A stretch of DNA of 64,000 nucleotides. It comes from Pseudomonas marginalis. GTDB lineage: Bacteria; Pseudomonadota; Gammaproteobacteria; Pseudomonadales; Pseudomonadaceae. The notes under the pieces are model-generated. The model made no database searches. It saw only the letters and a list, made by a program, of their open reading frames with translations, and was not told the origin of the DNA. Within the stretch, counting starts at the first letter, position 1. Each line of letters opens with the position of its first letter. Positions 17,277-34,743 of the stretch are shown in pieces. The position numbers and the translations under genes were made by a program. The DNA lies in NCBI RefSeq assembly GCF_024169655.1, contig NZ_JALJWV010000001.1, positions 687,001 through 751,000 on the forward strand, in the 5' to 3' direction.

Positions 17277-20165
17277 TTAGGCCGCCTGGGCGCCGTGATC
17301 ACCTTGTTCTGGCACTGCGACAACTACATAGCAGCGCTGCAAGCCCAGCCCCGGTAGTCGCACTGCGGTCGAAGCTTTGCCATCCCTTCCTGGCTCTAAA
17401 ACGCCTCGTCGCAGGAGCTCTTTGTTAACCGCACTCAGGTTCATGCCTCGGAAGATTTCGGAGCGCCACGCTTCGGGCAACACGTAGTAGGTGTTGGTGG
17501 TGTGCAGGGCGTCGCCCATGCCATGTTCCATCGTCTTGCGAAAGCCCAACCGATCAATCGTGCGTGGGCCGTGTTCATCGATCTTGGCGGCGGCAGATTC
17601 CCAACGGGTAAAGCGGCTTTCTCCAAATCGCTCGATGACTTGGCGTAGCCGGGCCAAGATCGCGTCACCCTCGAAGTTACCGGCGCCGCCGCGTTCGGCC
17701 AGCCACGCATGCAGGCACACACGTGCGGCGGTCGTGGCCGTACCGTCCGGCCAGCCGGTGACGCCGAAGGCGGTAGCCAACTCTCCGGCTGCTGCCGCGA
17801 GGCCGAAGCGAAGCGCGGCGCGCTGGGCTTGTCCGCTGGCCGAGGCGGGCAGGTTTTGGGTGATGAACTGCTCCACCGTATGGCGAACGATCACCGACCA
17901 CCTGAGCATTTCGCCAGGCGCACACAGTGCGTGCAGGAAGGCAGCAAGGGGCGTGCCGTAGTATTTGGCTACACGCGCCTTGAGCGCATCGGAGAGGGCG
18001 GCAGCGTCCTCAAAACCGTTCAGCACATCGAACATGCCGAGACCTTTACTCGCATCCGCAGGTACTGCGAGCATGCGCACCTCCATACCCGCTTTCAGCT
18101 CCTTGTTGGCATCCGCCATGTGCTGCGCCAACGTCTTCTCGCCGGTCGAGAGAAACAGCAAGCGCCATTCCTGCACCTGTCGGCCCGCTTGTCCTCGGTC
18201 ATTCGCCCGGGCTTTGCCGGTGCCATTGCCGAGCATGTACACCGTTTCGCCAATGATGCGCGGGTCACACATACCGATTTCATCAAGCACCAGGAGGCCG
18301 TCTGAGTGTGCGGCGGCAATGGACTCCAGGGCGTTATCCGTGGAGCGCCACGAACGCACCAGACGCGGCCCGCCATAGACCGAGGCAGCGACCTGCAAGT
18401 GGGTGGTCTTGCCGCCGGAGCTGTCGCCGTAGAGGTGGAAGCCGCCCGACTCATGCCCAAGCAGGTTCAGCAGAGGCCCCGCAAAGGCCACAGAGACGAC
18501 AAACGCCAATCGGTGGTTGCCAACGCACAACGCGCCGATTTGCTGCTGCCATTGCTCCAGAGATCCTGCCTCGCTGATCGGTGGCAACTGGGCACCGGCT
18601 TCATAAAAATGCAGGTGTTCGGCGTGTGAGCCGATCTGTTGTTCGGGCAATAGAAACGCGTTGTCGTGCCAGCCCAAACGCGTTACCAAGCGTGCGCGCT
18701 GGGCGCTGTCGAAGCCGCCGAGATAGCTTTGCAGGTCATTGCGGGCATTGCGCCCTGATCGACTTCCGGCAAGGCGCAGGCCCATGTCTACCAGTGGACC
18801 AAGTACGTCCTTACCGAAGTCGCCGGTCATGGTTCGGGCCGGAATGTTCCAGCGTTTTTTGGCGCCGTCCGGGTCATCAAACTCGACCAACAAACCCCAG
18901 TTGTGGCCCTTGTCGTCGCGAGTGCGAGCGATGATTTCGAGAGGCGAACACACGGGGCGCGCCTCACCATCATCGCCGGAATAAAACACCCCTTCAGGCG
19001 TCAGCCGAAAGCCGCCCGGCAACAGATCATTTTTCGATTTCGCAGGGCGTTTGGCGGGGACCTTGGTCTTTGGTTCTTGAGGCTCAGTGGGCTCAGCAAC
19101 ACTGCCGAAAAACTCGCCGTTGTGCACCAGCTCGGCGACGTGGCCAGCGGTCCAGCCTTTGGCTAACGCATCCGCTGCATCGTCTCCGTCCGCCCATTTT
19201 CCACCCTTGATGAGCGTCGGTTTGCCGCCTTTGCTGCTTGGCTTGAGCTTGAACACGTCGAGCGAGATTCGTTGCATTGAAGCGGCGCCCAGCTCAGTCA
19301 GCTTGAGCTCGATGGAGTCCATGCAGGTCTTGCCGCTGGCATCGTTATCCGGCCACAGCACCACAGCGCGCCCTTTGAGGGGCGTCAGATCGGCCTTGTG
19401 CCAGGAGTTCGAGCCGTTCGGCCAGCAGGTGGCTACGTGGTTGGGCATCAGTTCAGCGGCGGCGTCAGCAGCCTTTTCGCCTTCACATAACACCACTGGC
19501 GCATCGGCCCGCTGTGCCAGTTCATGCAGGCGCAGCAATGGCCGAGGCTCCGGCAACCCTTGCCAGCGCCATTGTGTGGTTTGCCCATCGGAGCGCTTGC
19601 ACCAGGTCAACGGCGCAAAGACCTTTCGCGGCTTGCCGTCTTCATCTGGGTCCAGGTCGAAGCGATACAGCGCCATGACCGGCTGGCCCTGGGCATCACG
19701 ATAGATCCACACCTTGGACGGAACACCGTGTTGCCGGTGTTTGGCAGGGCACTTGTTCATGGCCTCGGCCGGGATCGGTTGAATCGCAATCCACTCCGGC
19801 GTTGCGCTCTTGGCTGGTGTGCTTTTGGTGGTTGCAGATCCTGCGGAAACGCTGAGCAGATCTGCCAGTTTTTTACAGGCATCAACGTCCGTGCCGCCGT
19901 CGATGTAACGCACCAGGTCGATCAGGTCGCCGCCCTTATCGCCGGTGGCAAAATCCGCCCAGGTGCCTTTGCTCAAATTGATCTTGAGCGAGCCAGCGCG
20001 CTTGTCTGAACGCGTCGGATTAGGTGCGGTGTATTCCTTGCCTCCATCAACGCGTTTGCCGTTCGGCAGCCAGTGAGCAAGCACACGGTCGATGTTCTTC
20101 AGTGCGGCACTTTTTACGTCGGCAAAGCTCGGACGTTTTGAGGTGTTGCCGGTGCGCTGATTCAT
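17277..20165 (-). CDS. Primase-helicase of a P4-like element (Toprim + DUF927-like helicase)
   Basis: This 962-residue protein is the likely replication initiator of the element. The N-terminal part (about 45-110, GTWADFATGDKGGDLIDLV) resembles primase zinc-less N-domains. The Toprim core has VVLCEGEKAAD (224-234) and VVLWPDNDASG (268-278), giving the Glu and Asp-x-Asp metal ligands. A DUF927/AAA-type helicase follows from about 390, with Walker A GDSSGGKTT (580-588) and Walker B LLVLDEIG (624-631). The order primase then helicase is that of P4 alpha-like proteins. Its start overlaps the DUF3077 gene by 4 bp, within the operon controlled by the C4 leader at 20928-21004. Confidence 0.9.
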   Translation of the reverse strand: MNQRTGNTSKRPSFADVKSAALKNIDRVLAHWLPNGKRVDGGKEYTAPNPTRSDKRAGSLKINLSKGTWADFATGDKGGDLIDLVRYIDGGTDVDACKKLADLLSVSAGSATTKSTPAKSATPEWIAIQPIPAEAMNKCPAKHRQHGVPSKVWIYRDAQGQPVMALYRFDLDPDEDGKPRKVFAPLTWCKRSDGQTTQWRWQGLPEPRPLLRLHELAQRADAPVVLCEGEKAADAAAELMPNHVATCWPNGSNSWHKADLTPLKGRAVVLWPDNDASGKTCMDSIELKLTELGAASMQRISLDVFKLKPSSKGGKPTLIKGGKWADGDDAADALAKGWTAGHVAELVHNGEFFGSVAEPTEPQEPKTKVPAKRPAKSKNDLLPGGFRLTPEGVFYSGDDGEARPVCSPLEIIARTRDDKGHNWGLLVEFDDPDGAKKRWNIPARTMTGDFGKDVLGPLVDMGLRLAGSRSGRNARNDLQSYLGGFDSAQRARLVTRLGWHDNAFLLPEQQIGSHAEHLHFYEAGAQLPPISEAGSLEQWQQQIGALCVGNHRLAFVVSVAFAGPLLNLLGHESGGFHLYGDSSGGKTTHLQVAASVYGGPRLVRSWRSTDNALESIAAAHSDGLLVLDEIGMCDPRIIGETVYMLGNGTGKARANDRGQAGRQVQEWRLLFLSTGEKTLAQHMADANKELKAGMEVRMLAVPADASKGLGMFDVLNGFEDAAALSDALKARVAKYYGTPLAAFLHALCAPGEMLRWSVIVRHTVEQFITQNLPASASGQAQRAALRFGLAAAAGELATAFGVTGWPDGTATTAARVCLHAWLAERGGAGNFEGDAILARLRQVIERFGESRFTRWESAAAKIDEHGPRTIDRLGFRKTMEHGMGDALHTTNTYYVLPEAWRSEIFRGMNLSAVNKELLRRGVLEPGRDGKASTAVRLPGLGLQRCYVVVAVPEQGDHGAQAA

Positions 20166-20434
20166 GGTGCGGTCCTCGACTCAAGCAGCGCCTCGTTCAC
20201 GTCGTCGATCAGCGCCTTGGCCATCTCGCCGAGGTAGAACGCAGGCCAGCTAAAACGCTCGCCCGCATCGCTGATGGCGGCATCGAGGATCAGTTGATTG
20301 GCGTGGTGCAGAATCTGGGAGACGGCTTCAAGTGCGTCCTCCAGCGGGATACCGGCATTTACCCGAAACAGGTTTTGGCCGTTACCGTTGGCAGGGGAAA
20401 ACTCGGAGCGTCCACGCGTGCTGGAGTGGGTCAT
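20162..20434 (-). CDS. DUF3077-family small protein
   Basis: This 90-residue protein has the core FRVNAGIPLEDALEAVSQILHHAN...FYLGEMAKALIDDVNEAL, matching the two-helix pattern of the Pseudomonas DUF3077 family, whose function is unknown. It overlaps the primase start by 4 bp (ATGA-type) and the preceding gene by 4 bp, so it belongs to a tight replication operon. A related but different small protein follows the second C4 leader at 24059-24298, which links this family to C4-controlled operons. Confidence 0.75.
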   Translation of the reverse strand: MTHSSTRGRSEFSPANGNGQNLFRVNAGIPLEDALEAVSQILHHANQLILDAAISDAGERFSWPAFYLGEMAKALIDDVNEALLESRTAP

Positions 20435-20715
20435 AGCGCACCGCCTTTCTGGTCCATCGGCACAGAAGAGGCATCACCGTACATGGTGAGTGTTTTGATC
20501 AAACCCAAGGTGCCGCGAACGTCCCAAATAACAGACGACAGCACGCGGTTGGATAGCAGGGGTTTATCGCCGTCCAAGTGATCTTCCAACAGCATGAGAA
20601 CTGAATCGGCACGGTCGAGCGCACAGGTGATGGCGTCGATAGGCAGACCGGCTTCGGCGTCTTGGCTGACGCAGAGCAGATCCTCGGGTAGTGCAAAGCC
20701 TGGGAGCATGCTCAT
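20431..20715 (-). CDS. Hypothetical protein of the replication operon
   Basis: This 94-residue protein begins at the ATG at 20715 (MSMLPGFALPEDLLCVS); the longer open frame reaching to 21198 runs through the RNA leader and is not coding. It is helical and acidic (AGLPIDAITCALDRADSVLMLLEDHLDG...LSSVIWDVRGTLGLIKTL), again with the two-helix pattern of DUF3077-like proteins. It overlaps both neighbours by 4 bp, which implies co-translation. Function unknown. Confidence 0.7.
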   Translation of the reverse strand: MSMLPGFALPEDLLCVSQDAEAGLPIDAITCALDRADSVLMLLEDHLDGDKPLLSNRVLSSVIWDVRGTLGLIKTLTMYGDASSVPMDQKGGAL

Positions 20716-20870
20716 TGGGCACCCCCTGCGGCTTCCAGGGCGCGAGCCTTGGACATATGGGCGTTGTAACGGGAAAGGCGTGTAGCGAGGCTGGAGTTGG
20801 CGTGTAAAGCCGCGAGAGCCATTGCTCGATGAGCGGCTGCGCGAATTTTGGACGGATTGAGGGCGTGCAT
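20712..20870 (-). CDS. 52-residue first protein of the C4-controlled operon
   Basis: This small basic protein starts at the ATG at 20870, preceded in the message by AAGGAG with 9 bases spacing. It is helical and alanine rich (KIRAAAHRAMALAALHANSSLATRLSRYNAHMSKA). Its ribosome site lies inside the last pairing segment of the C4 leader, so its translation should be the direct target of the antisense RNA. By position it corresponds to icd of phage P1 or kil of P4, the first gene behind the immunity RNA, and may serve mainly to couple or block growth. That comparison is positional only. Confidence 0.65.
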   Translation of the reverse strand: MHALNPSKIRAAAHRAMALAALHANSSLATRLSRYNAHMSKARALEAAGGAQ

Positions 20871-20879
20871 GTGGTGTAG

Positions 20880-20920
20880 CTCCTTTTCTGTGTAGGAGCT
20901 GCCACTGATCGTCGCCAAAC
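20880..20920 (-). promoter_or_regulatory. C4 RNA target overlapping the ribosome site of the first gene
   Basis: The message segment from 20918 to 20880 carries the complements of both antisense words, and the second one (GAAAAGGA) includes the Shine-Dalgarno sequence AAGGAG (20880-20885). Pairing with C4 would hide this ribosome site; pairing of C4 with the upstream copies at 21065-21086 would free it. Confidence 0.7.
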
Positions 20921-20927
20921 GAATTAG

Positions 20928-21004
20928 GGTGGCAGCTGTGCGCAGGTTGGCGAACCGGGGAAAAGGAACCCGGCAGACCCGAAGGTCTCCCACGCACAGC
21001 CACC
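20928..21004 (-). ncRNA. C4-type antisense RNA heading the primase operon
   Basis: On the minus strand the 77 nt RNA begins GGUGGCUGUGCG and ends CUGUGCG..CAG/CCACC-complementary, so its ends pair (20993-21004 with 20928-20942, with a three-base bulge). Inside is a small hairpin AGACC-UUCG-GGUCU. It carries two short antisense words: UCCUUUUC (20960-20967) and CGCCAA (20947-20952). Each is complementary to a copy upstream in the same transcript (21065-21071, 21081-21086) and to one downstream at the start of the first gene (20881-20888, 20913-20918). This is the layout of the C4 RNA of phages P1/P7 and resembles CI RNA of P4, which silence lytic or replication genes. Confidence 0.85.
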
Positions 21005-21211
21005 ATAAAATAGGAATGCGGGCACAAAAAAAGCGCCTGCAATCGGTATGGGGGCGCCTGTGCGCCTTTTCTATCCGGGTCGCCAAACCCGGTCGCTGAA
21101 TTTGCAGCGACAGCCAGAGAGTAACGCCCGGTTTTTGAAAGTGCAACTGTGCGGATCACTTGCGGATTTTTTCGATGCGGCATAAATTGATCAGGCATGT
21201 AGATTTACCTC

Positions 21212-24058: not shown

Positions 24059-24298
24059 TCAGGACGTGCGGGGCATGCAGTCGATGGAGCGGTCGACCAC
24101 GGTTTTGGCCATTTCCAGCAGGTGCCACACGGCGTGGATTTTGGCGCGGTCGTGGGGGGGCAGGTGGTCGCCGCAGTCCAGCACGGTGGCCGAGGCGCTG
24201 TGGATCAGGTGGGCGATGTAGAGCTGGGCGTCTTCGAAGCTGAGGTGTTCGTTGACGGCGAGGCAGTCGATGGGCGGATCGGGGAGTGCTTTGGTCAT
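24059..24298 (-). CDS. DUF3077-like small protein behind a C4 leader
   Basis: This 79-residue protein has the pattern LSFEDAQLYIAHLIHSASATVLD...IHAVWHLLEMAKTVVDRSIDC, two helices as in DUF3077 and related Pseudomonas small proteins. Its ATG at 24298 follows AGGAG in the message, and that ribosome site lies in the pairing region of the C4-type RNA at 24350-24427. It is outside the island, on the far side of the tRNA, so it may be chromosomal or the relic of another element. Function unknown. Confidence 0.7.
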   Translation of the reverse strand: MTKALPDPPIDCLAVNEHLSFEDAQLYIAHLIHSASATVLDCGDHLPPHDRAKIHAVWHLLEMAKTVVDRSIDCMPRTS

Positions 24299-24349
24299 GG
24301 TGTAACTCCTATTGAACGAGAGAGCGACCCCCCACGCTGCTAAACGAGG

Positions 24350-24427
24350 GGTGGTAGCTGTACGCGGGTTAGCAGACCGGTCAATAGGAAAACCAGCGCA
24401 CCCGAAGGTGCCCCACGCACAGCCACC
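24350..24427 (-). ncRNA. Second C4-type antisense RNA
   Basis: This has the same architecture as 20928-21004: terminal pairing GGUGGCUGU with ACAGCUACC, an inner hairpin GCACC-UUCG-GGUGC, and two antisense words. CCUAUUGA (24381-24388) and CUGCUAA (24369-24375) each match one upstream copy (24453-24459, 24466-24472) and one downstream copy near the gene start (24308-24315, 24337-24343). All pairing segments differ from the first RNA, but the complementarity is kept on every side. These are compensatory changes that support real base pairing and separate specificity. Confidence 0.83.
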
Positions 24428-24707
24428 ATAAGCGGTGACATGAACCGTGCGTCTATTGAAACGGGCTGCTAAACCCGATCACTGATTCCAGTGACGGATC
24501 GAAGACTAGCCAGCGGTTTCCACAGGCACAAGGCGCCGGGGATTGTCTAGGAAACGTCCTTCAAATTAAAGCGATCCACCCTGCTGGCCTTTTACAAAGC
24601 ATGACCGCAACCTCGTTAGCTCCCTAACGGGATAGCCTTGCTGCGTGTAAAAGTGGCACATTGTCGCACCTGCACCTGTGCATTCCCCCGCTGTACGGAA
24701 CCCTCTT

Positions 24708-25954: not shown

Positions 25955-26506
25955 CTACGGTTGCAACGGGGTGCGCGTGGCGCGCTTAAGGTGTTCGCGC
26001 GCCCGTGACAGGCGTGAGCGCACGGTGCCGATGGGGATGTCCAGTGCATCGGCGGTGTCTTGATAGCTGCCGTCGGTTTCCAGCGAGGCGTACAGCGTTT
26101 TACGCATCTCGGTGGGCAGGTCCTTGATGGCGACCAGGGTTTTTTCCAGGCGGCGGTTGACCTCGAATTCCCAATCCAGATTCTGGCTGTCTTCCTGGCC
26201 GTGCCACAGCGCTTCATCGAATTCGCAATGTACCGGTTTGGCGTACATGCGCCGGAAGTGGTTGCGGATCAGGTTCTGCGCAATGCCGCACATCCAGGTG
26301 CTAAGGGTTGCCTGGCCACTGAAACGCTCTCTGTTGCGCCAGGCCTCCAGGTACGTCAACTGCAGAATATCGTCCGCATCTTCCGGGTTGAGCACGCGCT
26401 TGTGTATGAAACGCCGGAGCTTCTTTTGCTGGTCGTCCGTCAGGTGGAGCATGAATTGAGGCGAGCCGCCAACAAGGTGAGCTAAAGCACCAATAGGGAT
26501 ATCCAT
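25955..26506 (-). CDS. rspL: ECF sigma factor HrpL/RspL, master activator of the T3SS
   Basis: This 183-residue ECF sigma factor has region 2 at about 25-95 (NPEDADDILQLTYLEAWRNRERF...STWMCGIAQNLIRNHFRR) and region 4 at about 120-175 (ALDIPIGTVRSRLSRAREHLKR). HrpL recognises hrp boxes (GGAACC-N15/16-CCACNNA), and such sites precede sctW and the pilin gene in this cluster. It is divergent from the sctW operon. Its own promoter has a sigma-54 site (26559-26577), so it should be switched on by the HrpR/S-like activator at 43164-44090, as in plant-associated pseudomonads. Confidence 0.9.
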   Translation of the reverse strand: MDIPIGALAHLVGGSPQFMLHLTDDQQKKLRRFIHKRVLNPEDADDILQLTYLEAWRNRERFSGQATLSTWMCGIAQNLIRNHFRRMYAKPVHCEFDEALWHGQEDSQNLDWEFEVNRRLEKTLVAIKDLPTEMRKTLYASLETDGSYQDTADALDIPIGTVRSRLSRAREHLKRATRTPLQP

Positions 26507-26558
26507 GATTTTTTCCTCAGGGTGGACGCGATCGAAATGGTTTCGACGGGAACCCCTT

Positions 26559-26577
26559 TTGCACCGGCTGTGCCAAC
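26559..26577 (-). promoter_or_regulatory. Sigma-54 promoter of rspL
   Basis: On the minus strand TTGGCACAGCCGGTGCAA matches TGGCAC-N5-TTGCA with one mismatch in the -12 box; the invariant GG (-24) and GC (-12) have correct 10 bp spacing. It lies about 55 bp upstream of the rspL start. Confidence 0.75.
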
Positions 26578-26709
26578 CAGAAAAAAATCACAAGACGTTG
26601 ATTTATATAAATAAATATTTTTTATTCAGAGAATTCTGTGCGGTTTTTTGCAAAAGCCCAGGCGGGTTTGTGCCGGTAATTTCAAAATACCGCAGAGGGG
26701 AAATTTGTT

Positions 26710-26738
26710 GGAACCGTAAAGCCTGCGTTTGCCACATA
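26710..26738 (+). promoter_or_regulatory. hrp box (HrpL promoter) of the sctW operon
   Basis: GGAACC, 16 bases, CCACATA: a perfect match to GGAACC-N16-CCACNNA, 31 bp before the sctW ATG. Confidence 0.92.
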
Positions 26739-26769
26739 GGGACACAAACTCTACGTCCTGGCCCGCCCC

Positions 26770-27828
26770 ATGAAAGTCGAATCGCTCAACGATGTGCAAC
26801 AGCTCCAACGCGTGGACCCACCCCGCGTCAGCCCTGACAAAACAGCGGCCACGGCGACAGGTTTCGATGACATTGCGCAGGTTTTCAATCAAGAGGTCGC
26901 GCTCAATAATCAGGCGCTGAGCCGGCGCTCGATGGGCCTGACGGTACCTGCCGTCGAGCAGCTCGTGCGGCTCTATGATCAGCTCGGCCATCCGGCCCAG
27001 GAGCCCCTCGCGTCAATGGCGCGCCGGGTGCGTTCGCAACTGGCGCACAACGTCAGCACGGACAAGTGGCTGGCGCTGACCGGCGGCGACTCGGCCCGCG
27101 CGTTCGTGGTGCTCAAGTATGTGGCAGCGCAAGCCGAGGCACACGCCACCGAGGTGGCCTTGGCGCAAGAGGCGATCGATCGGTTGCAGGTGCGCTACAG
27201 GGGCGAGATCCAGGCCGGCCTGAACATTGCCTCCGCGCTGGAGCAGGCCGCCGGCGACCCGCAAGAGCGCCAGGCCGTGCGAGGGCTGTATTACGCCAGT
27301 GTGGTCACGCGCCAATCCTTGGCAACGATGATGCAATCGTTGTTGGGCCTGTTCGGCGGTGACCGCTTCGCTGACGGCCTCAAAGTGATGCGCCGCGCCC
27401 TGGCCGATGACATCGCCGCGCATTCGCCCTCGGTGCCCACGGCGCGTTTGCGCACGTTGCTGCTGGGGCTGCAAAGCTGCGCTCAGTTGGGCGGGGTGTT
27501 AGCCAATTGCCAGGCATTGCTGGAGCGCCTGAGCACCGATGAGGATTCGGTGAGTCTGTTGCAGCGCCTGTTGGGATATACCTCCACGGGTGTCGATTCG
27601 GGCGAGGTCTTGCGCCTGGCCGAAGACCTCGGTGGCGAGCTGGCGAGCGGCCAACTGGTGTCCCTCAACGGCCTGTACCCGGTGATCCAGCGCCTGCCTC
27701 AGACCTTGTGGCGTGACAGCCGCGGGCGCCAGGAGGCCTTGCACAAATTCTTGTTGGTGATGGACGAGTTCACACGAGTGGAGCGGGGCAACACCCACAT
27801 TGCCAGCGAATTGAGGGGCAGCGCATGA
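26770..27828 (+). CDS. sctW: T3SS gatekeeper SctW (HrpJ/RspJ)
   Basis: This 352-residue soluble protein of the HrpJ/YopN family controls the order of secretion and is itself secreted in plant pathogens. It is mainly helical, with the family pattern RYRGEIQAGLNIASALEQA in the first third and a TyeA-like C-terminal half. It is the first gene of the long operon behind the hrp box and overlaps sctV by 4 bp. Identity rests on position and overall pattern, as the family is weakly conserved. Confidence 0.85.
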   Translation: MKVESLNDVQQLQRVDPPRVSPDKTAATATGFDDIAQVFNQEVALNNQALSRRSMGLTVPAVEQLVRLYDQLGHPAQEPLASMARRVRSQLAHNVSTDKWLALTGGDSARAFVVLKYVAAQAEAHATEVALAQEAIDRLQVRYRGEIQAGLNIASALEQAAGDPQERQAVRGLYYASVVTRQSLATMMQSLLGLFGGDRFADGLKVMRRALADDIAAHSPSVPTARLRTLLLGLQSCAQLGGVLANCQALLERLSTDEDSVSLLQRLLGYTSTGVDSGEVLRLAEDLGGELASGQLVSLNGLYPVIQRLPQTLWRDSRGRQEALHKFLLVMDEFTRVERGNTHIASELRGSA

Positions 27829-29918
27829 AGGTGCTGGCGACCATCAACGCTGTGCTGCTCAAGGTGGCGCGGCGTGCCGAAGTATTGGGCGCGGTGGTGG
27901 TCATGGCCATTGTGTTCATCTTCATCGTGCCGTTGCCGACCTGGCTGGTGGATATTCTGATTGCGCTGAATATCTGTATTTCCTGCCTGTTGATCGTGCT
28001 GGCGCTGTATTTGCCCGGGCCGTTGGCGTTCTCTTCCTTCCCCTCGATTTTGCTGCTGACCACCATGTTTCGTCTGGCGCTGTCGATTGCCACCACGCGT
28101 TTGATCCTGTTGGAGCAGGACGCGGGCGACATCGTGGAAGCGTTCGGCAACTTCGTGGTGGGCGGTAACCTGGCGGTGGGGCTGGTGATTTTCATGATCC
28201 TGACGCTCGTCAACTTCCTGGTGATTACCAAGGGCTCGGAGCGGGTGGCCGAAGTGGCGGCGCGCTTCAGTCTCGATGCGATGCCGGGCAAGCAGATGTC
28301 CATCGACAGCGACCTGCGTGCCGGTTTGATCGACGGCGGCCAGGCGCGTGACAAGCGTGAGCAGTTGGGTCGCGAGAGCCAGTTGTTCGGCGCAATGGAC
28401 GGCGCGATGAAGTTCGTTAAAGGCGATGCGATTGCCGGGCTGGTCATTGTGGTGATCAACCTGTTGGGCGGTTTTTCCACCGGGATGTTCCAGCACGGCA
28501 TGAGCGCTGGCGACTCGATGGCGTTGTATTCGGTGCTGACCATCGGTGACGGCCTGATTGCGCAAATTCCCGCGCTGCTGATCTCGCTGACCGCCGGCAT
28601 GATCATCACCCGTGCGGCGCCGGATGGGCGCAAGGGTGCCAATAACATGGGCGCGGAAATTGCCCGGCAGATGACCAGCGAACCCAAGAGCTGGATGATC
28701 GCGTCGGTGGGCATGCTGGCTTTTGCCGCCTTGCCTGGCATGCCTACGTTGGTATTCATCCTCATTTCGATGATGACGGGCAGCCTCGGTTATTACCTGG
28801 CGCGTCAACGCCAGCGCGAGGAAGAGCCGCAAGCGGAAGCCACCGATGTGGTTCGCCCTGAAGACAACGGCGAGGAAGATTTGCGCGGGTTCGATCCGTC
28901 GCGTCCCTACCTGTTGCAGTTTTCACCGGTTCTGCAAGGCTCCCCCGAGGTCACGGAACTCATCCACGGGATTCGCCAGGCGCGCAATGCGATGGTCGCC
29001 AACATTGGCCTGACGCTGCCGCCGTTCGAAGTCGAACTCGATGCTTCGCTGGCCGACGATGAGATGCGTTTTTGCGTCCACGAAGTGCCGATGATCAAGG
29101 CGTCGGTGGTCATGCTGGTGGCGGTGGAACGCAAGGCGCTGGCAGACGAGCCGGCCCACGCGGTGCAGGGGTTGGCCGAGCGCGACGAGCAGGACTGGCT
29201 GTGGCTGCCGCCCGACGATCCGCTGCTGGATGACCCGCAGTTGGAACGCTTCAGCGCGACCAGCCTGATCATCGACCGCATGAAGCAGGCCATGATGCTC
29301 AGCGGCCCGCAGTTTCTTGGGATTCAGGAGAGCAAGGCGATCCTCGGCTGGCTTGAGCACAACCAGCCGGAGCTGGTGCAGGAGCTGCAGCGGATCATGC
29401 CGCTGTCGCGCTTCTCGGCGGTGCTGCAGCGCCTCGCGGGTGAAGGTGTGCCGTTGCGTGCCGTGCGCCTGATCGTCGAGTCGTTGATCGAGTACGGCCA
29501 GCATGAACGTGAGCCGGACGCCTTGGCGGACTACGCGCGCATTGCGCTTAAATCGCAGATTTTCCACCAGTACAGCGAGGCGGACGGCCTGCATGCCTGG
29601 CTGTTGTCGCCGCAGACCGAAAACGTGCTGCGCGAGGCGCTGCGCCAGACCCAGACCGGGGTGTTCTTCGCCCTCGATAGCGACAGCGGCGCTTCGTTGG
29701 TCAACCTGCTTAACCAAGCGTTTTCCGTGCGGCCCAAAAGCAAGAGTGTGATGTTGGTGGCCCAGGACCTGCGCAGCCCCTTGCGCACGTTACTGATTGA
29801 AGAGTTCAGCCATGTGCCGGTGCTGTCGTTTGCTGAGCTGGGGAGCGCCTCCAAGGTCAAGGTGCTGGGGCGCTTTGACCTTGGCCAGGAAGAGCTGATG
29901 CGAGGAGCGGCGGCATGA
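27825..29918 (+). CDS. sctV: T3SS export gate protein SctV (HrcV/RscV)
   Basis: This 697-residue export apparatus protein forms the nonameric ring that guides substrates into the inner-membrane channel. The N-terminal third has about eight membrane helices with the FHIPEP-type loop (ARFSLDAMPGKQMSIDSDLRAGLID). The C-terminal ~350 residues form the cytoplasmic ring domain (SRPYLLQFSPVL..., ILGWLEHNQPELVQEL, LSRFSAVLQRLAGEGV). Length is normal for the family. The start overlaps sctW. Confidence 0.96.
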   Translation: MKVLATINAVLLKVARRAEVLGAVVVMAIVFIFIVPLPTWLVDILIALNICISCLLIVLALYLPGPLAFSSFPSILLLTTMFRLALSIATTRLILLEQDAGDIVEAFGNFVVGGNLAVGLVIFMILTLVNFLVITKGSERVAEVAARFSLDAMPGKQMSIDSDLRAGLIDGGQARDKREQLGRESQLFGAMDGAMKFVKGDAIAGLVIVVINLLGGFSTGMFQHGMSAGDSMALYSVLTIGDGLIAQIPALLISLTAGMIITRAAPDGRKGANNMGAEIARQMTSEPKSWMIASVGMLAFAALPGMPTLVFILISMMTGSLGYYLARQRQREEEPQAEATDVVRPEDNGEEDLRGFDPSRPYLLQFSPVLQGSPEVTELIHGIRQARNAMVANIGLTLPPFEVELDASLADDEMRFCVHEVPMIKASVVMLVAVERKALADEPAHAVQGLAERDEQDWLWLPPDDPLLDDPQLERFSATSLIIDRMKQAMMLSGPQFLGIQESKAILGWLEHNQPELVQELQRIMPLSRFSAVLQRLAGEGVPLRAVRLIVESLIEYGQHEREPDALADYARIALKSQIFHQYSEADGLHAWLLSPQTENVLREALRQTQTGVFFALDSDSGASLVNLLNQAFSVRPKSKSVMLVAQDLRSPLRTLLIEEFSHVPVLSFAELGSASKVKVLGRFDLGQEELMRGAAA

Positions 29919-29955
29919 GCGCAACCTATATAACCGCGCCGGGGAGGACGTGCTG

Positions 29956-30858
29956 ATGTTTGAGCTGCGCGTGCTGGAAGGTTTGAATCAGGGCGCTGCG
30001 TTGCCGTTGTTTGGCGAGCAGTGGAGCCTGGGTTGCCACGCTGACGCGGATCTGCTGCTGACCGACGCGGGAGTGGTCGAGTATCACGCGCAGTTGCGGC
30101 TGACCGACGGGTTCTGGTCGGTGCAGGCTGAAGCCGGGCTGTTGCAAAGCAGCAGCGGGCAGGCGCTGGCACAGATCGCCGACCTGGCGCTCAATACGCC
30201 GTTTTCGCTGGGCAGCATTCGCCTGTGCGTCGCCTTGGCCGATCAGCCTTGGCCCCGGGCAGCGGCCCCGCAGGCCCCCCCGGCAGCCGAGCCGCGCCGC
30301 GAGGTGCCGGCAACGCTGGTGTTGTCGGCCATCCCGCCGTTTCAGCAGAAGCGCCTGATCAGCCTGGTGCTGGCGTGCGCGGTCATCATCGTGGCGGTCG
30401 GCATGGCGTCCACCGGCGAGCATGAGGCCCAGGCATCGCTGATGCCCGTCGTGCCGCAAAAGCCCAACCTCGCTTCGCCGTTCGAGGTGCGCCAGCAGTT
30501 GCTCAAGATGCTCGGCGAGCGCGAGCTGGACCATCGGATCAGCTTGCAGGTGATCAATGGGCAGATCGCCCTCAATGGCGATGTGTCCCAGGAGGAGGTG
30601 GAGCTCGTCGCGCGCATGCTCAGCCGGTTTGGTGAACAGTTCGACACCGCCGTGCCGGTGATCAGCCGTGTGCGGGTGCGTGACAACGTCCTGCCGTTCA
30701 AGATTTTGCAGATCGTCGGCGGGCCGAGCGGCCATGTGGTGCTGGAACACGGCGATCGTTTGTTCGTCGGCGATGAAGTGGATGGCCTGCGGTTGGTGTT
30801 GATCGACAACAGCAAGGTGGTGTTCGACGGCACGCAACGCTTTGAGGTGAGCTGGTGA
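29956..30858 (+). CDS. sctD: T3SS inner-membrane ring protein SctD (HrpQ/RspQ)
   Basis: This 300-residue protein has an N-terminal FHA-like cytoplasmic domain (FELRVLEGLNQGAALPL...SLGCHADADLLL), one membrane helix at about 138-155 (ISLVLACAVIIVAVGMA) and a periplasmic part with ring-building modules. It forms the outer inner-membrane ring around SctJ. I chose the ATG at 29956, nine bases behind GGAGG; the GTG at 29950 is too close to it. It overlaps sctN by 4 bp. Confidence 0.87.
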   Translation: MFELRVLEGLNQGAALPLFGEQWSLGCHADADLLLTDAGVVEYHAQLRLTDGFWSVQAEAGLLQSSSGQALAQIADLALNTPFSLGSIRLCVALADQPWPRAAAPQAPPAAEPRREVPATLVLSAIPPFQQKRLISLVLACAVIIVAVGMASTGEHEAQASLMPVVPQKPNLASPFEVRQQLLKMLGERELDHRISLQVINGQIALNGDVSQEEVELVARMLSRFGEQFDTAVPVISRVRVRDNVLPFKILQIVGGPSGHVVLEHGDRLFVGDEVDGLRLVLIDNSKVVFDGTQRFEVSW

Positions 30859-32213
30859 GCGGCACGGTGCAGGAGCGTCTCGACGCGTGGCAATTGATTC
30901 AGTCCCAGGGGCTGGCCCGTTTTGCGCCGGTGTCGATGCGCGGTCGTATCCAGCGCGTCAACGGCATGCTGCTGCAGTGCCGGCTGCCACAGGCGCGTAT
31001 CGGTGATCTGTGCCAGGTCGAAAAGAACCCCGGCGATTACATGCTGGCCGAAATCATCGGGTTTGATCAGCAGGATGCGGTGCTCAGTGCCCTGGGCAAT
31101 CTGGAGGGCGTGCGCGTCGGCGCCGCCGTGGAGCGCCTGGGGGTGCCGCACCGGGTGCGGGTCAGTGATGAACTGTTGGGCCAGGTGCTGGATGGTTTTG
31201 GTCGCCCGATCGCAGGCGAGGGCCCGAGTGCGTTTGTCGAAGCGGATACGCCCGACGCGACTGCAGTGTTGTGCGAGGCGCCATTGCCCACGGAGCGCCC
31301 GCGCATCAGCCGCGCGTTGGCCACTGGCGTGCGCTCGATCGATGGTCTGCTGACGTTGGGCGAGGGTCAGCGCGTCGGGCTGTTTGCCGGCGCCGGTTGC
31401 GGCAAAACCACGTTGTTGGCCGAGATCGCCCGTAACGTGGAGTGCGATGTGATTGTGTTCGGCTTGATCGGTGAGCGGGGCCGTGAATTGCGCGAGTTCC
31501 TCGATCACGAACTGGATGACCAATTGCGCGCCAAGGCCGTGCTGGTGTGCGCCACGTCCGACCGCTCCAGCATGGAACGGGCGCGGGCCGCGTTCACGGC
31601 GACCGCACTGGCCGAAGGTTTCCGGCGCAAGGGCAAGCGCGTGTTGTTGCTGATCGACTCCTTGACCCGTTTCGCCAGGGCCCAGCGCGAAATCGGCCTG
31701 GCCGCTGGCGAACCCTTGGGCCGCGGTGGTTTGCCGCCCTCGGTGTACAGCTTGTTGCCGCGCTTGGTGGAGCGCGCCGGGTTAACGCGCGAAGGCGTGA
31801 TCACCGCGATCTACACCGTGCTGATCGAGCAGGACTCGATGAGCGATCCGGTGGCCGATGAAGTTCGTTCGCTGCTCGACGGCCATATCGTGCTGTCCCG
31901 CAAGCTGGCCGAGCGTGGCCACTACCCGGCGGTGGATGTGTTGGCCAGCCTTTCGCGAATTTTGAGCAACGTTGCCGAGCCTGGGCACATCCAGGCCGGT
32001 ACGGCGTTGCGTCGTCTGTTGTCGGCTTACCAGCAGATCGAGCTGATGCTCAAGTTGGGCGAGTACCAGCCCGGTAACGATGAGCTGACCGATCTGGCCG
32101 TGGACAGCCGCCAGGCGGTGGATGGTTTCTTGCGCCAGGACTTACGTGAGCCCTCGCCGATCGCCACGACCCTGGATCACTTGATGGAGCTGACTGCCTA
32201 TGTCCCTTTCTGA
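30855..32213 (+). CDS. sctN: T3SS ATPase SctN (HrcN/RscN)
   Basis: This 452-residue hexameric ATPase strips chaperones from and unfolds substrates at the base of the injectisome. It has an F1-beta-like fold with P-loop GLFAGAGCGKTTLL near 173-186, Walker B VLLLIDSLTRFARAQREI near 260-277 and the family segment LGRGGLPPSVYSLLPRLVERAG. The start is a GTG overlapping the sctD stop, and its 3' end overlaps sctO by 14 bp. Confidence 0.96.
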   Translation: MSGTVQERLDAWQLIQSQGLARFAPVSMRGRIQRVNGMLLQCRLPQARIGDLCQVEKNPGDYMLAEIIGFDQQDAVLSALGNLEGVRVGAAVERLGVPHRVRVSDELLGQVLDGFGRPIAGEGPSAFVEADTPDATAVLCEAPLPTERPRISRALATGVRSIDGLLTLGEGQRVGLFAGAGCGKTTLLAEIARNVECDVIVFGLIGERGRELREFLDHELDDQLRAKAVLVCATSDRSSMERARAAFTATALAEGFRRKGKRVLLLIDSLTRFARAQREIGLAAGEPLGRGGLPPSVYSLLPRLVERAGLTREGVITAIYTVLIEQDSMSDPVADEVRSLLDGHIVLSRKLAERGHYPAVDVLASLSRILSNVAEPGHIQAGTALRRLLSAYQQIELMLKLGEYQPGNDELTDLAVDSRQAVDGFLRQDLREPSPIATTLDHLMELTAYVPF

Positions 32214-32628
32214 AGTCTTGTCGGGTGAAATCGACACCTTGCGGCGTTTGCGTCGCTACCGCGCAGACCGCGCCGAACGTGCGCTGCGCGAGGCCAAGCG
32301 AGCGCAGCAAGCGCTGGTCGCGCATATCCAGCAGGCCCAGGCGACGCTTGAGCAAACGCGCCTGGAAGAGGCCCGACAATGCGCGCAGTTGTTGAGTGAA
32401 CACCAGGGGCAGGTGGTGACCTTCAAGGCGCTGAAAACCTGGAGCGCCAAGGAACACCACTTGTCGGCCGGCACCCGCCGCGAAGAAAGCCAGTTGAAGG
32501 ACCTGCAAGGGCAGCGCGAAGAGCAGGCGGCGCAGGTCGGCAGTGCGCAAAAACAGGTGACGTTGTGTCTGCGCCAGGTGGAAAAAATCCAGGAGCTCTC
32601 CCATTTGCTGACGCAGGAACCGCTATGA
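32200..32628 (+). CDS. sctO: T3SS stalk protein SctO (HrpO/RspO)
   Basis: This 142-residue coiled-coil protein resembles YscO/FliJ. Almost the whole length is a charged helix hairpin (LRRLRRYRADRAERALREAKRAQQALVAHIQQAQATLEQTRLEEA). It acts as the central stalk between SctN and SctV. The ATG lies 14 bp inside sctN, and its stop overlaps the sctP start. Confidence 0.85.
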   Translation: MSLSEVLSGEIDTLRRLRRYRADRAERALREAKRAQQALVAHIQQAQATLEQTRLEEARQCAQLLSEHQGQVVTFKALKTWSAKEHHLSAGTRREESQLKDLQGQREEQAAQVGSAQKQVTLCLRQVEKIQELSHLLTQEPL

Positions 32629-33083
32629 ACCCCGTTTCCGCCATCTCGCCTGAACGCCTGAACCTGCGTGAGTTTCGGCTAGATCGTGTACCGGTGATCG
32701 ACGCCTTGGTGCCGTGGGAGGACCGGCGACTGTTTGCCCAGTTGTTGAATGATGACAGCCACGACGCAGGTCAATGGCCGTCCCTGGCCGGAATCAAGGC
32801 TTCAGGCGATATCTCCCTGGTCGATGCGTTGAGCGAGCGCCTGGTTTCGCGGATTGACGGCGCTTCGCAGTGGCCGCTGACGGCGGTCTTGTACTTGCCG
32901 CACCTGGGGCGGATCGACAGCAGCATCGGTCGAGAGCAGGGCGCCTGGACGATTGAGTTGCAGGCCGAGCGCGAGAGCACGACGCGCTGGCTCAGCGGGG
33001 TACGGCAGCAGTGTGAGCAAAGGCTTGCCGAGAGCCTCGCGCGGCCTGTCAGCCTGCGCTTAACCCCCACGGCGCGGGCATGA
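32625..33083 (+). CDS. sctP: T3SS substrate-switch protein SctP (HrpP/RspP)
   Basis: This 152-residue protein starts at the ATG at 32625 (ATGA overlap with sctO). The C-terminal half (WPLTAVLYLPHLGRIDSSIGREQGAWTIELQAE...CEQRLAESLARPVSLRLTP) corresponds to the T3S4-like switch domain of HrpP/YscP, which controls the change from pilus to effector export. The ruler part is very short, as in hrp1 systems with long pili. Confidence 0.8.
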   Translation: MNPVSAISPERLNLREFRLDRVPVIDALVPWEDRRLFAQLLNDDSHDAGQWPSLAGIKASGDISLVDALSERLVSRIDGASQWPLTAVLYLPHLGRIDSSIGREQGAWTIELQAERESTTRWLSGVRQQCEQRLAESLARPVSLRLTPTARA

Positions 33084-34093
33084 TGATGCCCGCTCTGGCG
33101 TTGCCCTCGGTCAAGGGCGATGTGGCGGCGGCCCGTCTGCGGTTGGGGCGCGGATTGCGTATGCCGTATCAGGTGGGCGAGCTGCGTGGCGAGTTACGGC
33201 TGGAGCCCGGCGCTGCCCCCGTGGGCATCCAGCCGCTGTGTTTCGAAACCGCCTGCGGCGTATTGGGGTTCAGTGAGCCGGGGCCGCAATTCAGCTTGCT
33301 GGGTGAATGCCCGGTGACGTTGGCACAGGCGGGCAACGATCCGGACTCCTGGTTCTGGGCCTTGTTTCAGCATCATTTGAGCGCCCAGGTGCGGGCGCTG
33401 TTGGGGCATTTGCGGCTACTGCCCTCTGCGCGGCCATTGAACTTCGGTTGCCGGCTGTGCGTGACGCTCGGCGCGTCCCACGTCGTGGGTTACCTGTGGC
33501 TGTCGGCGCAGAGCTTTCTGGCGTTGTGCGAGGCCGGGGCGTGGCGCCGCATGGCCAGCCCGATGCCGGCGCGTTTTCAGTTGGCGCTGCCCGTGACGAT
33601 CGGGCGCCTGCGCGTCCCCCTCAGCCAATTGCGCGGTCTGCGGGCCGGCGACGTGCTGGTGTTCGAACAGGCGTTTTTCCAAGCCCATGGCGAGGGTCAT
33701 GTGCAGGTCGGCGGGCACCGTCTGTGTGTGTTTATTGATGATGAATCCGGGCCTATCTGCCTGACCCTTACTTCGATCGAGGAAGCGCCTTTGGACGACG
33801 ATTTTGCAACACCGCCCTACTCGGGACATGAAGACGACACGCCGGTGATGGATGTCTTTGGGCATGAGCCGTTCGATGAACTGAGCATGGCGCTCAATGT
33901 GCGATGCGGCACGCTCAACCTGACCCTCGGCGAGCTGCGCAACCTGGCGCCCGGCGCGGTGCTGGGCATTTCCGGGTATGCACCGGGCATGGCCGGGTTG
34001 TATTACGGCGACCGCCCGCTGGGCGTGGGGCAATTGGTGGAAGTGGACGGGCGCTTGGGGTTGCAGATGTCTCGTGTGATCTTTTCCCGATGA
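33080..34093 (+). CDS. sctQ: T3SS cytoplasmic ring protein SctQ (HrcQ), unsplit form
   Basis: This 337-residue C-ring/pod protein of the FliN/YscQ family has two SpoA-like domains near 185-245 and 265-335. The last reads [26 protein letters not shown]...[16 protein letters not shown]. In P. syringae this is split into hrcQa and hrcQb; here one uninterrupted frame covers both. An internal ATG at 33848 (MDVFGHEP) could give a separate HrcQb-like product. It overlaps sctP and sctR by 4 bp each. Confidence 0.9.
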
Positions 34094-34743
34094 GTTTTCA
34101 AGGGATAGACCCGATTGTTCTGGCCATGTTCGTGGGCGCATTGTCGTTGATGCCCATGCTGTTGATCGTCTGCACCGCGTTCTTGAAGATCGTGATTGTG
34201 CTGATGATCACCCGCAACGCGATCGGTGTGCAGCAGGTGCCGCCGAGCATGGCCATCAACGGCATCGCGTTGGCGGCGACCCTGTTCATCATGGCGCCCG
34301 TGGGGTATGAGATCGCGGAGGTCGTCAAGGTGACGCCCCTGGACTTGAGCAGTGTGAGCACGCTGCAACAGACCGGGCTTGAAGCGGTGCAGCCGTTGCG
34401 GGCTTTTATGGTGCGTAACAGTGACCCGGACATCCTCACCCACCTGCTGGAAAACACCGCGCGCATGTGGCCGCCGGCCATGGCGCAGGAGGTCCAGCGT
34501 GAAGACCTGATCCTGCTGGTCCCGGCGTATGTGTTGTCGCAGTTGCAGGCGGGGTTCGAGATCGGGTTCCTGATCTACATCCCCTTTATCGTGATTGACC
34601 TGATTGTCTCCAACCTGCTGCTGGCGCTGGGTATGCAAATGGTCTCGCCCATGACCATTTCGCTGCCGCTCAAATTACTGCTGTTTGTGATGGTGTCCGG
34701 CTGGTCGCGGCTGCTGGACAGCCTGTTCCTTTCCTATCTCTGA
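34090..34743 (+). CDS. sctR: T3SS export apparatus protein SctR (HrcR/RscR)
   Basis: This 217-residue membrane protein forms part of the SctRST pore complex. It has the family signatures [37 protein letters not shown] and, near the end, [21 protein letters not shown] with LGMQMVSP. The ATG at 34090 overlaps the sctQ stop; a longer frame from 33904 is a read-through of sctQ. It is intact, unlike the partial clusters known from some P. fluorescens strains. Confidence 0.95.

Follow-up and report, generated by a model that had tools for sequence, protein, structure and literature searches.

Phages P1 and P7 encode an antisense RNA, C4 (RF01695, immI), that folds into three stems, carries its address in two words, a' and b', and is processed by RNase P to about 77 nt. 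In the phage P1 leader, the elements follow one another in the order b1-a1, C4, b2-a2 and ribosome site. P1 and P7 are said to be told apart by 4 nt of a' (Citron and Schuster 1990, cited in the available part of PMC5320573). Outside phages, 21 Group 1 C4-like sRNAs with a variable a' loop have been reported from Acinetobacter baumannii, with read depth as a sign of processing (Weiss et al. 2016, in the available part of PMC5320573).

We studied a C4-type leader in Pseudomonas marginalis, in a window of 64,000 nucleotides, by which we mean the whole stretch of DNA analysed. We are confident, if not certain, that the segment 24059-24606 is a self-contained C4-type antisense switch with private words, one of eight in this genome and part of an accessory family across Pseudomonas. 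The anatomy is directly visible, and on the minus strand b1, a1, C4 with its a' and b' loops, b2, a2 with the ribosome site and the gene at 24059-24298 stand in the same order as in P1:

24347-24433, minus strand: C4 antisense RNA (RF01695); Rfam 83.4 bits, model positions 1-87 of 87; stem P1 and P2 pairs covary in 46 C4s
24388-24381, minus strand: a' word CCTATTGA, the address loop; pairs with a2 at -16.1 kcal/mol
24375-24369, minus strand: b' word CTGCTAA; pairs with b2 at -11.9 to -12.0 kcal/mol and also with b1
24398-24411, minus strand: P2 inner stem GCACC TTCG GGTGC; both-side changes at three pairs in 20, 24 and 17 of 46 C4s
24343-24337, minus strand: b2 target TTAGCAG; from the sequence and the own-versus-foreign pairing test
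24315-24306, minus strand: a2 target TCAATAGGAG, overlapping the ribosome binding site; from the sequence and shuffle tests
24472-24466, minus strand: b1 upstream target TTAGCAG; from pairing and an RF03163 (c4-a1b1) match at 24458-24509 of 38.8 bits (cut-off 46.7)
24459-24453, minus strand: a1 upstream target TCAATAG; from the pairing analysis, one letter shorter than the word quoted earlier
24503-24531, minus strand: putative sigma-70-like promoter TTGTGC-17-TAGTCT, read from the sequence
24059-24298, minus strand: gene of 79 aa, DUF6124-like, ATG at 24298; Pfam 25.1 bits, predicted two-helix hairpin
24059-24606, minus strand: whole cassette; homology edges against related loci and presence or absence among relatives
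20925-21010, minus strand: island C4 with different words; Rfam 85.4 bits

Both C4s of the window lie above the Rfam cut-off of 45 bits. The match of the 24306-24475 leader to RF03163 (E 1.6e-8) stays under the cut-off for that model, as does its match to the isrK model (24.3 bits, cut-off 50); the island copy reaches 64.8 bits with RF03163. TTGTGC of the putative promoter is conserved in an upstream alignment of 92 leaders, in which the -10 element is closer to TATCCT. Because the a2 word and the ribosome site form one piece (TCAATAGGAG), part of every a' pairing is generic and directed against the ribosome site, and the rest is the address.

The initial annotation had seen in the window two C4 leaders, 3.4 kb apart, with concerted changes in their pairing words, and had proposed two switches that do not cross-react. 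The distance is correct, the quoted words are present in the sequence, apart from the missing letter in a1, and the word changes are real. The genome in fact holds eight C4s. The island words are CCTTTTC/GAAAAGG and CGCCAA/TTGGCG, and the claimed change of the inner stem, from AGACC/GGTCT in the island copy to GCACC/GGTGC here, is borne out by the alignment of 46 C4s. Measured as predicted stacking sums of contiguous helices, which are not affinities, a' pairs with its own a2 at -18.0 (island) and -16.1 kcal/mol (our leader) and with the other's a2 at -8.2 kcal/mol in either direction; for b', the own pairing stands at -14.4 and -12.0 and the crosswise pairing at -5.8 and -8.9 kcal/mol. The crosswise helices are thus weaker than the own ones in all four comparisons, and as a prediction, the absence of cross-reaction stands. 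The two copies also differ in context: the C4 at 20925-21010 sits among integrase, AlpA and DUF927 genes, and that at 24347-24433 between tRNA-Met and an MFS gene. The island leader (17277-21111) contains the C4, an isrK-like leader (58 bits) and a short frame that we take to be Icd-like, followed by DUF3077 and DUF927 genes. Beside the cassette, at 25955-34743, lie a type III secretion cluster, of which HrpJ, FHIPEP and an EscN-type ATPase were matched and the rest assigned by position, and a gene for a sigma factor of the ECF type.

The complementarity goes well beyond chance. When the C4 (L003) was kept fixed and the letters of the downstream 62 nt were shuffled singly, an equally good a2 arose in 9 of 5000 shuffles, an equally good b2 in 153 and both together in none. 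Across 187 leaders, the own a2, b2, a1 and b1 give stronger contiguous helices than partners re-dealt among leaders; with re-dealing confined to one genome, none of 2000 rounds was as good for any of the four targets in G005 (42 leaders), G097 (35) or G049 (55), and with the eight leaders of the window's genome the counts were 0 for a2, 0 for b2, 2 for b1 and 10 for a1. Among 44 distinct leaders of the protein family of our gene (7 of 51 having been dropped as identical or below 40 bits), the mean own a'/a2 and b'/b2 helices were stronger than in all 5000 re-dealings. The upstream copy behaves likewise, with 0 of 5000 shuffles each for a1 and b1 once the windows were re-set to the closer spacing of this family; the original, island-type windows missed that spacing and gave 1 and 51 of 5000. 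The covariation called for earlier is there as well: in an alignment of 46 C4s from two Pseudomonas genomes (all 8 of the window's genome and 38 of the 55 of G049, the a' stem, P3, lying outside its consensus), 13 of 23 predicted pairs have changed on both sides, three inner-stem pairs in 20, 24 and 17 of the 46. Pairing is kept despite different words, and the base pairing that had been read from the concerted changes is supported. In sum, compensatory change keeps the conserved stems, the target that a' and b' match covers the ribosome site, and a second a1-b1 copy lies upstream.

Such leaders are numerous. At least one C4 match was found in 110 of 119 Pseudomonas genomes, 17 of which had at least 33 scored matches, and genomes searched singly gave 42 (G005), 35 (G097), 36 (G010), 37 (G116) and 55 C4s (G049), 52 of the last above the Rfam cut-off. 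In a sample of the class, C4 occurred in 20 of 276 genomes, the window's own included, with a largest count outside the genus of at least 10; none of 14 control genomes had any. In the window's genome, L005 (5711764-5711846) has a C4 with b1, a1 and b2, without a convincing a2 or a gene behind it, and is an orphan or decayed switch. Three C4 matches form a local array within 0.5 kb of G116 (2201331, 2201610 and 2201705, the last under the cut-off). Outside Pseudomonas, one genome has 6 C4s, 4 of them inside 1.4 kb, and there (L377, at about 1701 and 2654) two tandem leaders precede similar 119-aa genes; their a' is the same and their b' words differ, and the target of each leader matches the words of that leader. 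In G097, three leaders (L040, L047 and L058) have one a' core in common, CCTTGATT, each with a b' word of its own.

The diversity of the words is accompanied by matching targets. Among 212 of the 213 C4s of six genomes (one partial match in G010, at 35.6 bits, was left out), the cognate target, a2 and b2 together, ranks best or tied in the genome for 170 C4s, and the cognate C4 for 178 leaders; for 42 C4s, some other leader in the genome is a better fit than the cognate one. A cis target fits the own C4 in 185 leaders, the remaining 27 failing the pairing cut-offs. The cassettes mostly carry different words, so each probably silences its own gene. In the protein family of our gene, which spans 34 named and 22 unnamed loci with 44 distinct intact leaders, we grouped the words into about 14 a' and five b' types, with matching targets in nearly all. 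Of the named loci, 3 have no C4 match, 1 has a distant match only and 3 score 26-30 bits, among the latter L269, where most of the C4 between a' and a2 is missing. The exact b2-a2 pair of our leader, sought as a single pattern without mismatches, occurs once in its genome, in that leader itself; going by its letters, the locus qualifies well as a C4 switch, and its address is private.

The addresses turn over as blocks. Because near-identical genes carry different, internally matched word sets, the words evidently change together while gene and promoter stay. Two loci colinear on both sides, L263 of P. grimontii and L275 of a P. viridiflava isolate, are 92% identical at the DNA level in the gene and 84% in the promoter part; their leader blocks, at 74%, differ in both words. 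Between L267 and L273, identity is 92% in the upstream flank, 89% in the promoter part and 96% in the gene, against 48% in the downstream flank, which is not shared; the leaders, at 73%, have other words. For L276 and L274, an identity of 94% in the gene goes with 67% in the leader. The pattern could arise if the block recombines or if compensatory changes are fast.

The cassette as a whole is accessory, present or absent between relatives. In 24 of 34 related loci, homology to it breaks off at 24605/24606, and in 13 of these it also ends at 24066 on the gene side. At the tRNA-Met/MFS locus, relatives have the cassette (L295), a diverged or interrupted match (L296, L297 and L299), a tandem (L298), only the upstream edge (L300, L301, L303 and L306) or no cassette (L302 and L304, with about 90 and 65 bp against about 620 in the window); L311-L323 could be aligned on the MFS side only. 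That a transposon ends at 24606, as the sharp boundary might suggest, was considered and set aside, as the MFS side also stops near there (24613) in cassette-free genomes. Along the 5' edge of the subfamily (24540-24606 and L261-L284), the sequence is conserved as a block, which in several loci has the inverted repeat TTGCTGGC...GCCAGCAA; sequences resembling Pseudomonas REP elements often stand beside it. A grouping of loci by their flanks, in which downstream genes joined 115 of 187, gave way to another.

Whether copies within a genome are kept apart was examined with and without matching for relatedness. Without it, 36 of 4426 ordered within-genome pairs have words that fit across copies, against 103 of 10048 between-genome pairs, which is no clear deficit. 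The identity-matched tests drew on 178 leaders that pair with their own C4 and precede a gene of 50 aa or more (variants of the criteria also on 197 without the pairing condition). Where the proteins are at least 60% identical, 6 of 418 within-genome pairs have fitting words, as do 38 of 405 between-genome pairs; at 90% or more, the counts are 3 of 49 and 16 of 57; and when the promoter part, too, reaches 75% identity, 2 of 39 and 18 of 57. As the pairs are not independent, we shuffled genome labels inside protein clusters, where 10 of 5000 shuffles were as low, and drew one pair per leader, with a median one-sided p of 0.005 at 60% identity (90th percentile 0.035) and 0.028 at 75% (0.124). 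The outcome varies with the definition of a fit: under stricter pairing limits, 29 and 32 of 2000 label shuffles were as low; with a shared 6-mer plus identical b', 72; with a shared a' 7-mer, 85; and with b' alone, 782. Loose limits (tolerance 3.0/2.5 and 4.0/3.0 kcal/mol) gave 562 and 545 of 2000 and do not support avoidance. Individual pairs differ in their words despite near-identical proteins, such as L091 and L130 (99%), L350 and L375 (99%), and L119 and L333 (98%, with a promoter part 95% identical). Strict criteria supporting it and loose ones not, the data suggest, at the level of predicted pairing, an avoidance of cross-silencing among close paralogues of one genome, which gene conversion between copies could mimic.

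The genes behind C4 mostly encode small proteins of the DUF6124/DUF3077 type. Clustering of 187 downstream frames gave 120 DUF6124/DUF3077-like members, 27 of a second small-protein group, 14 Bro-N-like and 13 short proteins that we take to be Icd-like. In Pfam, 89 of the 91 proteins of at least 60 aa from 98 leaders of three genomes (those of L184 and L186 were left out) included 54 matches to DUF6124, 11 to DUF3077 and 5 to Bro-N; five of the scanned proteins match phage anti-repressor families. The converse search, in six genomes, found a same-strand C4 upstream of 128 of the 150 DUF6124 matches listed (of 160) and 26 of the 27 DUF3077 matches checked (of 41), the rest being weak and many of them overlapping DUF6124; only 2 of the 150 have an internal stop. 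Our 79-aa protein scores just under the DUF6124 (PF19619) cut-off of 27, with 25.1 bits (E 1.6e-5), and its 70% identical paralogue L008 reaches 36.9 bits. Its predicted structure is a two-helix hairpin (pLDDT 83.9), for which a fold search returned no PDB or viral match at E of 0.001 or below (best 0.62 and 0.18); Tsi2, among the weak fold matches, was not taken as evidence. No relative was found among solved structures, and a scan of the 89 proteins against NCBIfam returned none either. The second small-protein group (L002, L042 and relatives) has starts like MNRYMPLTGHD, and L002, the one member tested, has no Pfam match. Seven leaders from seven Pseudomonas genomes (L018, L020-L022, L024, L025 and L028) share one a' word before a gene that resembles a Bro-N anti-repressor, an assignment resting on Pfam for L018.

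From these parts, the working of the locus can be sketched. Transcription would run from the putative promoter through the upstream target b1-a1, the C4, the downstream b2-a2 and the small gene. By analogy with phage P1, the C4 would be cut out of its own leader transcript and its loops would pair with b2 and a2, so that the ribosome site is hidden and the gene kept off, and the private word set would leave the island gene and the other copies of the genome unsilenced. The family has spread across Pseudomonas as accessory cassettes, and its specificity blocks turn over as co-adapted units. A bolder reading, which we put forward tentatively and regard as possible rather than probable, is that a phage immunity switch gave rise, on Pseudomonas chromosomes, to genome-wide sets of address-coded cassettes that silence themselves and are insulated from one another; selection on the address would drive near-identical copies to different words, with whole blocks exchanged while gene and promoter stay, and each address would answer its own trigger RNA, or shared words would let a selfish copy be lost.

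The same observations invite other interpretations. The cassettes could be selfish and addiction-like, with the C4 as antitoxin and the small protein as toxin, and shared words would then free a copy for loss. The presence or absence at one locus and the different words of close paralogues within a genome would fit, and in P1 the icd gene downstream of c4 inhibits cell division. We nevertheless think this unlikely, given that a homologue in G034 (L197) has an open frame and yet a decayed C4 (20.6 bits), that no toxicity is known and that the PADLOC defence-system models matched none of the 89 proteins.

Chromosomal C4s might instead be an immunity bank that silences in trans the early operons of incoming phages or satellites with matching words. 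A role in phage immunity is described for the C4s of P1 and P7 (Citron and Schuster 1990, cited in PMC5320573), and immunity is one of the two readings that the available part of the latter paper (Weiss et al.) proposes for A. baumannii. Against this, each C4 has its own target beside it, and chromosomal C4s fit viral-contig targets in 59 of 6394 cases, about the background of 103 in 10048 unrelated chromosomal pairs. The comparison, of 139 chromosomal C4s with 46 viral-contig leaders, covers a narrow set, several members of which have cassette-like genes: one exact scaffold pattern (50 stretches) gave 56 C4s with enough downstream sequence, 49 of them distinct and 46 with strong own pairing. 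We hold the bank to be improbable, and the "immunity" specificity initially attributed to the outer copy, a free-standing cassette, finds no support in these counts.

Nor do we expect the C4s to be ordinary trans-acting sRNAs whose main targets are other mRNAs of the chromosome, although Weiss et al. call such a role potentially more likely for the A. baumannii C4-like sRNAs with their variable a' loops (in the available part of PMC5320573): the fitting cis target of 185 in 212 leaders makes this very improbable, and the single occurrence of the b2-a2 pair in its genome, from a weak search with one exact pattern, points the same way. That the cassettes are drifting phage debris and their word differences neutral decay is scarcely credible, for all the patchy distribution, the remnants at some loci and the orphan C4 of L005, since drift would break pairs and not exchange them, pairing is kept through changes on all sides, and internal stops are confined to 2 of the 150 DUF6124 matches listed.

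If self-silencing by private addresses is correct, DUF6124 and DUF3077, both families of unknown function, would be outputs of a phage-type RNA switch present in dozens of copies in some Pseudomonas. The leaders would form a natural collection of matched antisense-target pairs that could serve as orthogonal RNA regulators, and comparisons between near-identical genes could trace how specificity evolves when several words change in concert. The cis targets may also offer an answer for the Acinetobacter C4 copies read as sRNAs without known targets.

Set beside known systems, the locus shares with P1 and P7 the three-stem fold and the address in a' and b'. In immI, icd and the antirepressor gene ant lie downstream; our locus lacks the icd-ant operon, has a DUF6124-like gene instead and is a free-standing chromosomal cassette with many copies per genome, the L018-type Bro-N leaders coming closest to the P1 arrangement. 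It resembles c4-a1b1 (RF03163) in its upstream target copy with a hairpin, under that model's cut-off here and above it in the island copy. The P4 CI RNA with seqA and seqC is likewise an antisense RNA cut from a leader with targets on both sides, there described with premature termination; this RNA and IsrK of Gifsy-1 go with other genes than ours (both in the available part of PMC4825925), and the isrK model stays under its cut-off at our locus. In a type I toxin-antitoxin system, an antisense RNA would silence the adjacent small gene and the protein would be toxic; what the sequence of our locus shows is complementarity between the C4 and the leader. The A. baumannii C4-like sRNAs share with Pseudomonas the many copies in one genome and the variable a' loop, but they are assigned no cis target or gene in the available part of PMC5320573, which proposes other targets, whereas most of those in Pseudomonas come with a small gene and a cis target that matches. 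Among the best-ranked matches in the open-licence literature, no paper describes an expansion of C4 in Pseudomonas, and none deals with DUF6124. C4 itself is already known; what is new here is its many copies, with mostly different addresses, block-wise turnover of those addresses and small genes of their own.
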